Shown here piece after piece: positions 6,715 to 47,173 of a DNA stretch of 64,000 nucleotides. Position numbers and translations under genes: made by a program. Positions within the stretch are counted from its first letter, which is position 1. Every line of letters starts with the position of its first letter. The notes under the pieces were generated by a model. The model did not search any database. It saw nothing but the letters and a program-made list of their open reading frames with translations, and was not told the DNA's origin. Source of the stretch: Marchantia polymorpha subsp. ruderalis (taxonomy: Eukaryota; Streptophyta; Marchantiopsida; Marchantiales; Marchantiaceae); contig AP031354.1 in NCBI GenBank assembly GCA_037833965.1, positions 2,458,001 to 2,522,000 of the forward strand, read 5' to 3'.

Positions 6715-8817
6715 TCAGTCATGACGTCGAGATTTCGCGTTGAACGCCAGTAGTGATTGCAGCTCGCATATTGCCTGCACAACGTCATCGCCAAGGCGAG
6801 CACGACGTTTGTTGATAGTCGTTCCTGCACGCGAGAACGCGCATTCACTCGGCACTGACGTTGCGGTCAGAGCCAGATAGTCGCGCGCCATAAGCTGAAT
6901 GCGCGGGTACATCGCCTGATTGACCGCAAACCATGAGCAAACATCACGACTGCTTTGCTTCATGTTCATCGGCGCGTGAGCCATCCATCGGTTCAGTTCT
7001 CCAGCAAAAGGCTCGTCAGCGATTTGATCGTGCTCCTCGAGCAGGTTGAGGAACGAATCCGATGACGGCCTCGCTAACGACGATTGCAACACCTGACGTT
7101 TCGCCTCGTAGTCCTGCTGGTACTCAGCCTCGTAGTCGTTGGTGATCAGCGTCATGACTTCCTTGACGTTGACCCCAACGTTAACGAGGACGCCTTTAAC
7201 ACGCGAATCCAACGCAGCGGCAATCATGACCTCACTGCGCTTGACCAACGCCTCATAATCCTTCAGCTTTTCTTCAACTGCCGTTGCAAATAGCATAGCG
7301 TGGCGCGAACGGAAGCCCTCGTTGGCAACGATTGCTCGGTGGATGTGCTGTAGAAGAATGTGCATCACTGTTATCACCATTCCCAGCGTTGGATACTCAG
7401 ACGCGGACATGAGCGCGGTCGCGTCCTTGAAGGGCTTCAGGAAGTCGTAGAAGTCATGCATGGCATGCCAAGTCACTTCCTCGATGCGTTTCGCAAGGTC
7501 GTCACATGGCTTGATCGAAAACGACGTGAAGCCGTCGTGGCGCTCTCGGATGCGATGCAACAGTTCCTCGAGCGGCTTTTTCAGCATTAAAACCGAATTC
7601 AGCATGGCCCAGGTGCTATTCCAACGCGTTTCGCAATCTAGCTCCGGCGTTCTCTGAGCGATCTTCAGGCTAGAGCAAATCGAGGCAAGCGATTCGAGTA
7701 GCTTGGGCGAGTCGACGATCTTCTTCATGAGCTCTCGGAAACGCCCAATCGCATTGTCCATCATGGGACAGCTCTTCAACCCATGCTGGACAGCCAGCTG
7801 CAGGACGTGCGCGATGCATCGCAGCTGAAAGACCGTGCGTGCATACCCGACGACGGCAATATCGTTATCTTCAGCAGCGCTCGATGCGACCTGTTCCGCC
7901 TCATAGTCATGAATGGCGTTTGGTAGTTACATGGTGTTCATCTCAGTTATCATTGTTGGATTGGTCGACGCATTGTCCGCTATGATCGACCACAGGCCAT
8001 AGAGTAGTTTTGGCGACATTTCGGCGACGGCATTAACGAAATGGCTGGCCAGCCTCTCGCCAGAATGCGGATACAGCACACGTTTGAATGCAATTATCAC
8101 AGATCGCATACACCACTTGTCGTCGATGTAGTGCAAGGTGACGACCATGTATCCGCGTTTCGCCGCTGAGGTCCACATGTCACTGGTTGTACCGCTGCGA
8201 CGCGTACCACATTCATCTTCAATTGTCACGCGGGCGCGATTTTTCTCATCCGTCCATTGCTGGATGACACGATTGCGCAGCGTGTTTCGCGTTGGCAGCG
8301 AATAGCTTCAGCGCAATGTCGAGCAAAACTCAACGAAGTCGGCGTGTTCAACAACAGTGAATGGCTGAGCGTGATTGACTATCCAATTCGATAGGACTCT
8401 ATCGGCGAGAGTCTTGTCGGCGATGGTGAAATCATTCGAAGACATCGTCTTGCGTTTGCCTGGTTGCCCTTTGAATCCATGATGACGTAACGTTGTTTGC
8501 GTGGGATCCTGCGGCGTGTAGATGGCGCTGTGATGCTTGATCAAATGCTTGCGAAAGTTCGATGTGCTCCTGTTGCGCCACACTTGCTTCTCATTCTTGT
8601 TGTGACAGGGCGTGCATTCGAACATGCCGTTCGGACGCTCCTTGATGTGCTTGTAAACGTCAGCGTGTGCACGGCCACCGCTCGCCGAGGATGCAGACGC
8701 AGCTTTGCTCGCCGCATCCTGCTCATCGTCAGACGGCGGCTCCTTCTCATCATCGGAGTCAAAATCCTCGCTGCCATCGTCACTTGAGACGACAATGGGT
8801 TCTTCCGCAGCGCTCAT
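6715..8817 (-). pseudogene. hAT transposase with two in-frame stop codons
   Basis: The frame runs from an ATG at 8817 to a TGA at 6715-6717, 701 codons in one register with no frameshift. It is interrupted by TGA at 8308-8310 and TAA at 7927-7929. Part 1 (8308-8817) has an acidic Ser/Asp-rich head followed by a BED-type zinc finger (CTPCHNKN, then HLIKHH). Part 2 (7927-8229) carries hAT core motifs such as TSDMWTS and IADNAS. Part 3 (6715-7779, with readable in-frame sequence back to 7926) includes CETRWNST and ends with the hATC signature SVPSECAFSRAG and KRRARLGDDV. All functional regions are still readable, so mutation after insertion has been slight. The protein would bind the terminal repeats and catalyse cut-and-paste transposition. 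Codon use is GC-rich compared with the surroundings. Confidence 0.9.
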
Positions 8818-9297
8818 GATGTCAATGAAGATGTCGAGGCCACCTACCGTGCTGCGCCTTGAAGTGCGTGACGATGTCGATTCCTGGACTGGCGCGGATG
8901 ATTGACGACAGCAAGCGAGAACGACTTGCCACTATGAGGGAGGGCGCCGGCACACCCGCACACGCCGGTGTCGGATCGGCAACAGTAGTCACGCGCGCAT
9001 TTCCCGTCACGACTGGTAATCTTAGCGCCCAAGCCTTCATATATTAATAGTGCAGCAGTACCATTGCAACTCCATTATAACTCATCAGTCTGCAGAAGGT
9101 TGGAGCAATTCCGTCGTCGGCTCAGCCGACGACGGAATTGGCTCAGCCGACTTCTCAACCGTCGCCACCGACGACGGCTCAGCCGACTCGGCTGTCAAGA
9201 CAGCAATTGTCTTCAAACATGTCGACTGTCGTATTTGATTCTAGTCGGTAACTTAGTTTTGGATTCCGTGTCTGATTACTCCATATAGATACGATGC
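8818..9297. other. hAT internal region upstream of the transposase
   Basis: This 480-bp segment lies between the transposase start and the right subterminal array, so it should hold the transposase promoter and 5' leader. It is GC-rich and contains the perfect 35-bp palindrome listed separately, followed by further GCTCAGCCGAC repeats to about 9200. The open frames here are short and overlap on both strands; none is convincing. Confidence 0.55.
9106..9140. repeat. Perfect 17-bp inverted repeat inside hAT element
   Basis: Two 17-bp arms (CAATTCCGTCGTCGGCT and its exact reverse complement) are separated by one base at 9123. Partial copies of GCTCAGCCGAC recur at about 9140-9150 and 9176-9187. 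The palindrome sits between the transposase start and the right terminus, so it may be a regulatory or protein-binding site; this is inference. Confidence 0.9.
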
Positions 9298-22480: not shown

Positions 22481-23992
22481 ATGCACAGTATGGAGGTAGA
22501 AGTGCAACAGCAACAGTCCCCGAGGCCTTGCCCTCCCGGCATTGTATCGCCTCTCAGTCGTTCTTACAGCAATATCAAAATTGATGAAAGGCACACGATG
22601 GAAATTGAAGTCCAACAATCTCCTGCTCCGCGCCAGCCTCCAAATTCTCCTCTACACGGCTCCGCTGTCAAAGGAACTCCTACTGCTGGAAAAAGTTTCC
22701 CTGTCGCTGCATGTGAAGTATCGCCCTTTAAAACTCTCGAGGATGATTCAAAGACTCTGTTTCCCTTGGTGGAGCACTGCGAATTGCCAAGCATTTCAGC
22801 AGATATTGTGAGTGACTAACTCTTGGATTTTAATACGTTTCCCTTTCCAACAAAGCAACTATTTTGACTATGCTAACAATCTGAGCACTTTCAAACCACT
22901 GCCCCGTCTGATCTTATTTGTTTCTTTGCTTGTATCATCTGCTAAGCTGTTTTCCTCTGTGGCAGATGAAGGAGATTTTGTCAGGTGAGAGAGACTTTCC
23001 AAATGATTCCGTTGTTATCATCGACTCTCGCCACAAGTTTGAATACTCTGGTGGACATATAAAGGTGAGATTAGCATTAAATTGCACTCGGTTTCCAGTC
23101 CGGTTACCAGTTCCTTTGTTCCCTTTTAATTCTGTAGACCTTGTGCAGTGGGATCACCTGTACTGAAAATCTGGTTACTCTTATTTATCGTCTTCAAGCA
23201 TGGTAATGTCGTTCAGTTGTTTCTGACACATCAGCACATGTTCAGGGAGCATTGAATCTTCAAGACCCAAGCAGTATTGAAGAGTTTTATTTTAAATACA
23301 TGGATAAAGGGAAAGAAATTGCAATAATTTTCCACTGCGAATTCTCATCCGCCCGAGCACCCAAGCTGTAAGCGCACATACTGGCCCTGCAGATTTCTCT
23401 CGTGGACTTAAATATGCCAGATTGTTGTCTGCTCAGATGAGTTGACTCTGACAACAGAATTGCATGTTCGACAGTTTCAGGCATATGAGGAATCTTGACA
23501 GGAAGCGTCACATTGAGCTGTATCCAGATATCGGTTTCCCTCACATGTACATCTTACACGGGGGTTATAAAGCTTTTTTCGAAGCCCATCCTGTAAGGAT
23601 CAACTAACACGTCCAAATTTGCCCAGTCCTCAGAGAAACTTTTTTGCGTCTCTTCAAAAAAATTCTTGTTTGTCTCGTTTGTTTGAAGGATTGACCTGCG
23701 TCCGATGCTTCAAGAAGTTAGCTGACTAACTTAAGAACGAACTGTGTTACAGGACTTTTGTGAACCCAAAGAGTATGTTCGCATGGCAGATCCGCTTTAC
23801 ACAGAAGACCTTCGAGCATCTAACAAGGTGCTGAAGAGAAGCTGGACAGCACGATCTAAGAATTCCAAGAACAGCAGACCTCGCTTGCATGATGGATTTG
23901 CGTTGTCGGACTTGTCAAACAGACAGGATGTGGATGTAAGCACACGAGATGTTAACACGCGATCGTGTTCAGTTTCCTTGAGCTTTGGGTAG
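22481..23992 (+). CDS. CDC25-type dual-specificity phosphatase (cell-cycle), five exons
   Basis: Exons 22481-22807, 22966-23064, 23246-23367, 23481-23592 and 23753-23992 join in frame through GT-AG introns to 299 residues. The start is ATG 22481, with an in-frame stop just upstream; ATG 22490 is an alternative. Residues 1-109 are a disordered head with six S/T-P sites and a repeated MExEVQQ...SP motif. Residues 110-235 form the rhodanese/CDC25 domain: EYSGGHIKGALNL (135-147), the catalytic P-loop HCEFSSARAP (172-181; Cys173 and Arg179 of CX5R), HGGYKAFF (209-216) and CEPKEYVRM (223-231). This matches true CDC25, which removes inhibitory phosphates from cyclin-dependent kinases. It does not match the short plant ACR2/arsenate-reductase relatives, which lack the regulatory head and CEP motif. 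The last exon might instead splice at a GTAAGC at 23936, giving another C-terminus. Confidence 0.88.
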
Positions 23993-28793: not shown

Positions 28794-31700
28794 TCAGCGC
28801 CATACTATCAGGATCATTATTAACGCGAGGAGCAATATAGCCAAAACCTGTCACAGCAGAAACGTGAAGTGAGTGCGGTTCACCAATAGCAAGCATCAAA
28901 AGCAGGCCTTCTAGCTCCCAGTTTCAAGTCACAGAAACAGTACATACCAGACATATCTCATGACCCGTCTTGCTTTCAATTGAGAAAGTTTTTCTGCAAT
29001 GAAGTGAACATCAGATAGTCAGTTTCTAAATATAGTGCTCCGCAATCAACACAGGCAAGTGTGGATGATTTTTCTCTTGGTTCTTAGTTGATCAATCGGT
29101 GGAGATTCTCTTCGAAATGGAAACTGCATACCTCTTGGTTTTGTTGAGAAAACGGGCTTTGCAAGCTGTTCGAATCTCATCAACGTATCTTTGTGTCAGA
29201 ACTGCTGAAGGATCAGACTTATCGATCTGGAAAGAATCAGGGGCAAACAGCTAATTAAAACTTATCGTTCTTGGTAACTTGTGATGACTCGTTCGTTGGA
29301 ACGTTTGTAAAACCCCAGAAGGCTGGGCCAAAATAATAAACGTCATCAGAGTAAATGTTTCATGTGGAGCAGACATTAAAATGTACGTGCCTTCGCTGCT
29401 AGAATTCCGCTAAAATCATCGAATGCAGCGTAGACATCGGACATTGTCTTGGTGCCCTCCATAATTTTTGCAGTAAGTCCTGCAAATTTCAGTATGAACA
29501 GATTCTTAGAGATGTGCAACATGCATCCACTTGGCACGCATAAATATTACTAACATGGCTGACATCGCATTGATTGATAACTTAGTTGAGCACACATGAA
29601 AGCAAGGGCGGTATCAGCGAGTTTTGCTTCTATTAGCGCATTGCCGGTTTGTAGTGGTGATGCTGCCAAAGATCCAGTTCGAGCCAGGAAACAAAAATCA
29701 AAACTCAAGATCCCAACACTATAATGACAGACTATACAACATAATTACAGATTAGACCATACGACTCTCGGACATATTGTCCGAGAACTGTATGTCCGAT
29801 AAGCAGCAACTGTATGTCACCTCGACGAATTTTGACAACTCCTCTGAAGACATGAATGTTGTTGTAGCAGAGAGCCAACGTGCCTATCGCCATAACCTGT
29901 TGCCAACACGATTCGTTTCTCGGATTCAGGGAATAAACAGAAAGCATGCACCTCAACCGAGTCCATGTCCACGGTTCGAGGTAGTTTCAATCAACTCTGT
30001 ACCCTGCATATATGTGCTGATGAATGAAAAGGGCATGGAACTACCTTTTGTTAAAGCTAGTAAAGGTCAAGTTGCCCTTTGTTTTGATCAAATGCATTCG
30101 TCCAACTTAGAATTCTTGATATGTCCGCAATCGGTGTTTCTCGTATGAAGAAGATGATCTATATTGACAAATCCATCAATCACATCCAAATGGATCTTCA
30201 AGCATGCGTTACCTGAGGAATAGCACAGAACCGGAAAATTGCAGGATCACGCAAGGCGGACATGTACTGCAAACACTCGGGACCATGCTTGAGAGCATTG
30301 GTAATCATATCATTCAGACAGCGCAGAGCATCTTCAGATCGGTCCTCCTCTTTGAAGACCTGAAAAGATGTTATTGATTCTTTGTTAAACTTGGATAAGT
30401 AGCATTTGCCTGTCGTAGTCCAAAGAAAAAGATCAATCATGATAAGAATGATAAGAATCCACGATGAACTCATTCAAGCGAACAACATAAGAAATACCAT
30501 CTCCGGTACTTAATTTTCCAAAAAAGCTTTAATCATATAAATGAAAGAACACATTTAAACTCCAAGAATCATCTTCCAGATAGTTATTTGAACTACCAAC
30601 GCATGATGGTGGCAACAAACCCATGTGTGAATGATAAGAACATAACTCTGCAGATATTCATGTACCCAGCTGATATCAAAGAACATTAGAGGGAAAGACC
30701 ACTCTTCCAGGTACCTCAAGTGCCGTCCCATATCTGCCCCAGATTTCACGAGGCCAAAACATACGAGGTGCAGGTATTTCGTTGATGTCTTCCAAGTAAT
30801 CTCGTATAATGTTTGTTTTCTAAGACAAACATAATCATAATCAACATGTTGTGTGGCGGTAAATTTGCATTCAAATAGATAAAATGATCCGATAATAATC
30901 CGATGTATACCGGGAAAACGCTGCTCTTGCGTGCCAAACGCTATTAAACATGCTGGAAGCAAAAATATCAGTGTAAGAAAAGATAGCTCTAGAGATAAGC
31001 TGACCTGGAGAAACAAACCCATAGAGTTTGAAAGTACATCCAAAGCAAAATCCTCCAGTCCCGCGGCGTAAAAGAGTCGAGTCAGTCCAAGTCCGACAAT
31101 CCCAGCCACATAATGACAGTATTCGTCATAGTCTGCGATGGTCTCTACCTGATTGGGATCACATATGAAGGTTTATCTTCAGCAGTTTATCTCAAAAGTC
31201 TCAAAGATATACCCACTTTAACAGGCAGATGTTCACACGAGAAGATGTTTTCCTGTAAAGTCAAATTGGAGAACAAAAGTACAACGTGTCTGGACAGACC
31301 TCTACTTCGATGAACTTGGCCATCCCGTTCCCCATTCGCTGTGTCATTTCAGAGATAACTTCTTGATACCTTCATAAAAACCAAAAAATCCTCAAAACTC
31401 ATGTAAGACGTATCATGAATGAAATGGAGGTATTACTAGTTAAGTATTGCTGAAGGTCCAATGATATCGGGAGTAAAATTGGCTGAAAGGACCAGGGGGT
31501 TTAGATCCATCCACTCAACCACATAATTTAGAGTTGAGAGTAAATAATAAGAAACACAATGAAGCGCTTTGTAAGGACACGAGCAAGTGGGATAAATTTT
31601 TAAAAAAACATGAAGTACAAAGATGTCTTGTCCAAAGACAATGCGAAGTCACTGTTTGATCCGAAACGAAAGTTTATGACAGACTAGTGCTGCATAGATT

Positions 31701-45760: not shown

Positions 45761-46018
45761 TTTTCAGCCGACTGTCTACACTTCTAGAGTTACGAAGCAA
45801 GGATTCTAGTTGTAGGAAAAAAAATACTTCACGTTGAGGAAAATAAAAGCATCAAACTAATTTTGTACCTGCCTAGACTCACTAAGAACTTGTTATCTGT
45901 AGGTAAGGTAATAGACATTGGTCATCTAGTAGTTTTAACTTCCGAGTGATGCTTTGTTTTAGAAAAGAAGTATCCAAAGCGAGTAATACTCTTTGATGAA
46001 CTTGATCCTAAGTTAAGA

Positions 46019-47173
46019 TTGCATAGGATTAGCAATAGCTTACAACGAGCTAAATTCTACGCACACTCTACTTCACTCACGGTTCCACTTGACATTCCTA
46101 ACTTCATAGGACTCGCGGAAGACGTATCGGCTCCAACCATCAGCAAGAAGGATCCCACCAACTTTTGGCACAAGCGCATGTGCCACATCAATCATCAAAC
46201 TACGCACAAATGTCGTCTAAAAAAATATGTTCAAGGCATTCCTTACTTGCAAGTAGGCAAGGACAAGAAATGTGAAACTTGTGTACTCGCCAAGCAACAT
46301 AGATCTAGACGACATGAACATGTTGTTAGACAAACTACTCGCCCCTTTGAACTAGTGCACAATGACTTGTGTCGACAAGTTCATAAGTACACTGAGTTCA
46401 AATACTTAGTCTCATTAATCGATGATTACACGCGGGTTTCCTTTCTTCGTTTGAAAAATGTCACCTTCCAAAAGTTTAAAGAGTTTGGGAAGTTGATGGA
46501 AACTTAGTTTTTCCACAAAATGCACTCAATGATACTGAGCACAATTACTCAAACACTATGGCAACTCTAAGCTCTGACTGCAGATGGAAATACTTATCGG
46601 TCTAATTCACCAGCTTTGTTGTCCAAAAGGGAATTCAACGACAATTGACAACCGCAGATACACCACATCAAAACAAAATTTTAGAGAAAAAAAATCGGAC
46701 CTTAATGTAGTCAACACTCTCCGTTTTCAACTTGCAAAATTATTCCGCCCATTTTTGGACTATTTAATGTGTGCTCGTAACTATGTGCTCAACTGTTCAG
46801 CTACTCGTGCATTAACCTCAGGACTCCATTCGAGAAGCTATATGGCTACTAGTCCAATCTGTTTCAACTTTGAATTCTTGGGAGCACTGCATATGTCTAC
46901 GTTCCAAAAGAAAAACACAACAAGCTAGGTCACAAGGCATCCAAATGTGTATTGGTGGATTATGGTGAACAATCCAAAACTTATAGGCTATGGTGTCCAA
47001 TCCGAAAGAAGGTCATACTATCCGACGATGTGACGGTGTTTGAATCAGTTCCAGGTAATTTTCACTCTGATGCACCGTTTGTTGATCTCTTTGCGAAACT
47101 TCTTGATCAAGACAATGATCTTGAGTCCAAGGCCTCACACGCAAGCAGACATTATACCTACGGACAACGATGA
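46019..47173 (+). pseudogene. Copia integrase remnant
   Basis: An open part at 46019-46507 has the GAG-pre-integrase zinc region (FWHKRMCHINH, KCETCVLAKQHR) and the core start with FELVHNDLC and LIDDYTR. Further on, frame-shifted pieces keep LRSDCRWKY (usually LRSDNGGEY) and EKKNRTL, then the downstream module SKTYRLWCPIRKKVILS at about 46970-47020. The catalytic Asp and Glu positions are partly kept, but the frame is broken. Confidence 0.82.

Follow-up and report, generated by a model that had tools for sequence, protein, structure and literature searches.

A single-copy canonical CDC25 gene in a liverwort genome, with a probable role at mitotic entry

Results

We identified a single canonical CDC25 gene, most likely MpCDC25;1, in the nuclear genome of the liverwort Marchantia polymorpha, or of something very close to it, and its product probably acts by dephosphorylating Thr14 and Tyr15 of CDKA and CDKB for mitotic entry. 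Whatever its role, the gene is almost certainly a true CDC25. Animals and yeast rely on CDC25 to turn on cell division; to our knowledge flowering plants lack a true form of it. The presence of CDC25 in a liverwort is already known: in their passages on the enzyme, Romani et al. (Plant Cell, April 2026; PMC13237563) describe a canonical CDC25 clade in streptophytes that was lost in vascular plants; they also give MpCDC25;1 as G2/M-specific in its transcription and MpCDC25;2 as ubiquitously expressed. The novelty implied by a preliminary description of this DNA therefore does not hold, because those passages already report the Marchantia gene.

The gene occupies positions 22481-23992 (+) of the window, the 64,000-nucleotide stretch that was analyzed (C5:2458001-2522000 in a nine-contig genome of 241.5 Mb). 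It consists of five exons and four introns, all of them GT-AG, and joining the exons gives 301 codons uninterrupted by a stop, in agreement with the undamaged, cleanly joined gene described initially. Exon 1 (22481..22807, +) encodes residues 1-109, a low-complexity head with six S/T-P sites and one RSYS site. Exon 2 (22966..23064, +) encodes residues 110-142, where the CDC25/rhodanese domain begins and EYSGGHIK is found, and exon 3 (23246..23367, +), which starts at residue 143 and has a split last codon, encodes GALNL and the active-site loop HCEFSSAR, with the Cys173 codon at 23336-23338 (+) and the Arg179 codon at 23354-23356 (+). The predicted CDK-docking helix (Arg188, Arg192 or Arg194, and Tyr199) and HGGYKAFF are encoded by exon 4 (23475..23592, +), and CEPKEYVRM, a C-terminal extension aligned with CDC25B/A (KRSW), and a basic tail by exon 5 (23753..23992, +), at the end of which lies the TAG stop (23990-23992, +). 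The introns, also on the plus strand, span 22808..22965 (158 bp), 23065..23245 (181 bp), 23368..23474 (107 bp), and 23593..23752 (160 bp).

The encoded protein has 301 aa when read from the first ATG (22481) and 298 aa when read from the fourth-codon ATG (22490), rather than the 299 residues first given. Because an in-frame stop codon lies immediately 5′ of the first ATG, and that ATG is spanned by a pyrimidine-rich run leading into CACAG, a splice in the 5′ UTR with translation from 22490 is possible. The 1 kb upstream of the gene contains three AACGG cores, compared with about 0.98 per kb across the window; the longer TCYAACGG (MSA) and E2F elements sought in the same 1 kb were absent. Promoter support is thus weak, and we do not use it as evidence.

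All four motifs of the CDC25 signature attributed to the protein are present in order: EYSGGHIKGALNL at residue 135, HCEFSSARAP at 172, HGGYKAFF at 211, and CEPKEYVRM at 225. The catalytic loop HCEFSSAR (residues 172-179), holding Cys173 and Arg179, matches by sequence the HC-E-F-S-S-x-R loop set in a rhodanese fold, and the region past the GGY loop (CEP..Y..M and the extension) is likewise present, with the phmmer alignment to CDC25B reaching residue 259. A head precedes the domain, as had been noted, and its six S/T-P sites fall at residues 13, 23, 47, 56, 66, and 81 (residues 13-82), as in the S/T-P-rich regulatory heads of CDC25 phosphatases. When exon 1 was modeled alone by AlphaFold2 without an alignment, the head received a mean pLDDT of 51.8, which is low confidence.

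Enzymes of the ACR2 type share the rhodanese fold with CDC25, and the solved structures separate the two. We take PDB entry 1t3k to be the Arabidopsis ACR2-type enzyme and 2j6p the Leishmania enzyme. In a phmmer search of the PDB (22 matches at E up to 1), CDC25A, CDC25B, or CDC25C (M-phase inducer phosphatase) chains took the first 12 places, with E values from 8.9e-34, for the top match CDC25B, to 6.8e-28, whereas the ACR2-type matches were far weaker: the Sb(V)-As(V) reductase 2j6p reached 2.5e-6, and 1t3k 0.0018. Identity was 40.4% to CDC25B, 39.6% to CDC25A, and 33.8% to CDC25C across 159-161 columns, whereas the two ACR2 rows reached 26.6% and 23.2% across 94 and 99 columns. A six-row tree of the window protein, CDC25A/B/C, and the two ACR2 proteins, which indicates only the side on which the window protein falls, split it and the three CDC25s from the ACR2 pair with 100/100 support; the remaining two inner branches are without support and leave the order within the CDC25 group unsettled. 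The window protein neither groups with 1t3k nor is a short protein devoid of the C-terminal extension. Scores, identities, and tree together bear out the initial assignment to canonical CDC25 and not ACR2, and the placement within ACR2/rhodanese proteins for which the tree was inspected was not found among the six rows. It is scarcely credible that this is an ACR2/arsenate reductase-type or generic rhodanese protein merely resembling CDC25: the sole Pfam placement is the broad family Rhodanese (PF00581, E 2.8e-13), as such a protein would have, but the gap between the ACR2-type and CDC25B scores, the 100/100 split, and the CDC25 C-terminal region all speak against it, as does the existence of a distinct ACR2-type gene in the same genome (C2:1567377), whose joined pieces match 1t3k at an E value of 3e-33. 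Searches of IMG/VR viral contigs and GTDB genomes returned 9 and 55 pattern matches, respectively, and 0 confirmed relatives; they are weak tests because the six peptide patterns used lay mostly outside the conserved motifs.

The CDC25 protein matched the whole genome at five places, and 5/5 are its own exons, making it a single-copy gene. Contamination is unlikely because this single copy lies 2.48 Mb inside a 33.15-Mb contig, and the inspection for a contaminant that had been proposed, which also took in the ordinary introns, found none; the apparent land-plant genome of the preliminary description is the nuclear genome of a liverwort, in a nine-contig assembly. Two primers published for MpNOP1 of Marchantia polymorpha (PMC5370431) have mismatch-free counterparts on C9, at 15311101-15311128 and 15310689-15310711, and span 440 bases, equal to the published amplicon. 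As printed, both lie on one strand, which is unusual for a primer pair but leaves the match as strong. The source is accordingly M. polymorpha or something very close to it, possibly a subspecies. A fungal, animal, or protist origin of the gene, by contamination or by horizontal transfer, is very improbable. The closest solved relatives are indeed animal-type CDC25s, but this carries little weight because the PDB search gave no CDC25 from other lineages, and set against it are the position and copy number of the gene, introns of the ordinary kind, and the streptophyte clade, with a named MpCDC25;1 in Marchantia, described in the passages of PMC13237563.

Elsewhere in the window, pieces of a hAT-type transposase lie in two frames at 6715-8931 (-); they match the hAT dimerisation domain (E 7.3e-16) and, upstream of it, a BED zinc finger (E 0.00024). 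At 45950-46507 (+) lies part of a retrotransposon, presumably of Copia type, in which a GAG-pre-integrase domain is recognized (E 2.4e-11). Downstream of the CDC25 gene and on the opposite strand, an exon-like frame at 30558-31172 (-) matches squalene/phytoene synthase (E 1.2e-8).

For comparison of docking residues we assumed a CDC25B numbering anchored on Cys473, which agrees with the residue letters in the docking study cited next. The CDC25B residues that dock on CDK2 are Arg488, Arg492, and Tyr497, as given in the part of PMC2764859 consulted. Their equivalents by alignment in the window protein are Arg188, Arg194 (Arg192 if a gap is moved), and Tyr199, and the position of CDC25B Glu478 is occupied by Ala178. 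On the CDK side, the genome encodes CDKA at C3:4902954, with GEGTYG (the Thr14-Tyr15 loop), PSTAIRE, and PGDSEIDELF, in which the equivalents of Asp206 and Asp210 are both present, and CDKB on C6 at about 23.42 Mb, with GEGTYG (again the Thr14-Tyr15 loop), PSTALRE, and PGDSELQQLL, in which the Asp206 equivalent is present and the Asp210 equivalent is missing.

At least two WEE/MYT-type kinases are encoded in the same genome. A WEE1-like kinase at C2:28015418 has WEE1 as its best PDB match (E 4.7e-44) and groups with WEE1 in a five-row tree (88/90). The best PDB match of a second WEE/MYT-type kinase at C5:18846601 (C5:18845000-18849500, minus strand) is PKMYT1 (E 6.7e-40), at 140.5 bits versus 129.3 bits for WEE1 (E 1.8e-36); because it has no supported placement in the five-row tree, its designation as MYT1-type rests on these PDB scores. 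The frame of this second kinase stops soon after the kinase domain and shows no MYT1-like membrane anchor. Queried with CDKA, the genome gave 136 matches (133/334 candidates scored), and with WEE1 it gave 70. Both the CDK and the WEE kinase counts are lower bounds, given as "at least," because inspection covered the loci named here, among which the three top-scoring hits of the CDKA query (one frame each, on C6, at 47-56% identity) are not included. Scanning of two further CDK-query loci (L038 and L039) found none of the motifs scanned for. Two short stretches, C8:11006382-11006507 and C2:17281175-17281300, resemble the start of the human WEE1 kinase domain (its initial 42 residues, 45% identity), and narrow motif scans of them (L041 and L042) found no motif.

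Discussion

In the mechanism that we consider probable, WEE/MYT-type kinases would place inhibitory phosphates on Thr14 and Tyr15 of CDKA and CDKB, and their removal by CDC25 would leave cyclin-CDK active at mitotic entry (G2/M). The Cys173-Arg179 loop, the residues of which are present, would perform the chemistry, and Arg188, Arg192/194, and Tyr199, also present, would dock on CDK Asp206 and Asp210, or on Asp206 only in the case of CDKB. Transcription would peak at G2/M, as published for MpCDC25;1, and the S/T-P-rich head would allow CDK feedback on CDC25. From this set of encoded parts we infer that WEE1/CDC25 phosphoregulation of CDK operates in this liverwort. Points that stand against this explanation include Ala178 in place of Glu478, a CDKB without the Asp210 equivalent, and the weak promoter support.

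Conservation of the parts falls short of proving that the switch works, because WEE1 phosphorylation of Arabidopsis CDKA;1 at Thr14/Tyr15 is reported, in the portion of PMC8431409 consulted, to be without effect on its activity level, and Arabidopsis WEE1 is described there as acting on CDKD; the liverwort loop could therefore likewise be rewired. The gene would then be a true CDC25 by descent with a minor or changed cell-cycle role, for example in DNA-damage recovery or with CDKD as substrate, following the rewiring of CDK control in plants. We regard this as the less likely course, though one to be taken seriously. Both Arabidopsis observations favor it, as does the loss of CDC25 from vascular plants described in PMC13237563, but two things weigh against it: one genome retains the residues for docking and catalysis together with kinases of the WEE family and the Thr14-Tyr15 loop, and the transcription of MpCDC25;1 is described in the same source as G2/M-specific. 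Action on CDKA and CDKB at mitotic entry is the reading that we prefer.

A broader scenario can be put forward only tentatively and is itself doubtful: liverworts may have kept the whole animal-style bistable switch, comprising WEE1, a second, MYT1-type WEE-family kinase, CDC25, and the two kinases CDKA/CDKB bearing both the Thr14-Tyr15 loop and the docking aspartate, and the joint loss of CDC25 and the second kinase in vascular plants may have freed CDK control from the loop. The passages on CDC25 in PMC13237563 contain no CDC25 mutant, assay, or complementation, and among the literature matches listed (titles and abstract starts, with subscription papers mostly outside the scope) none was a functional study of CDC25 in a bryophyte. 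Because this liverwort is genetically tractable and carries CDC25 in a single copy, plant use of the WEE1/CDC25 switch can be tested directly, and the gene is a good handle on that old question.

Among known systems, human CDC25A/B/C resemble the window protein in the catalytic loop, the GGHI, GGY..FF, and CEP motifs, the three CDK-docking residues, and the C-terminal extension, at 34-40% identity. The liverwort protein differs from them in having a head of about 97 residues ahead of the aligned domain, Ala178 for Glu478, a docking Arg-to-Tyr spacing that is longer by two residues, and a four-residue gap in the alignment before the catalytic strand. The Arabidopsis CDC25/ACR2 enzyme (1t3k; MpCDC25;2 type) shares the rhodanese fold and the C-X5-R loop, in which Ser replaces Cys in the solved chain, but it falls on the other side of the six-row tree, and the docking Arg/Tyr positions and the C-terminal extension are unmatched in it. 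Ostreococcus tauri encodes a functional green-alga CDC25, cited in the passages of PMC13237563. The nearest counterpart is MpCDC25;1 of Marchantia polymorpha, which is likewise placed in the canonical CDC25 clade in those passages, in a genome that also carries an ACR2-type copy, and the window gene is most likely this same gene.
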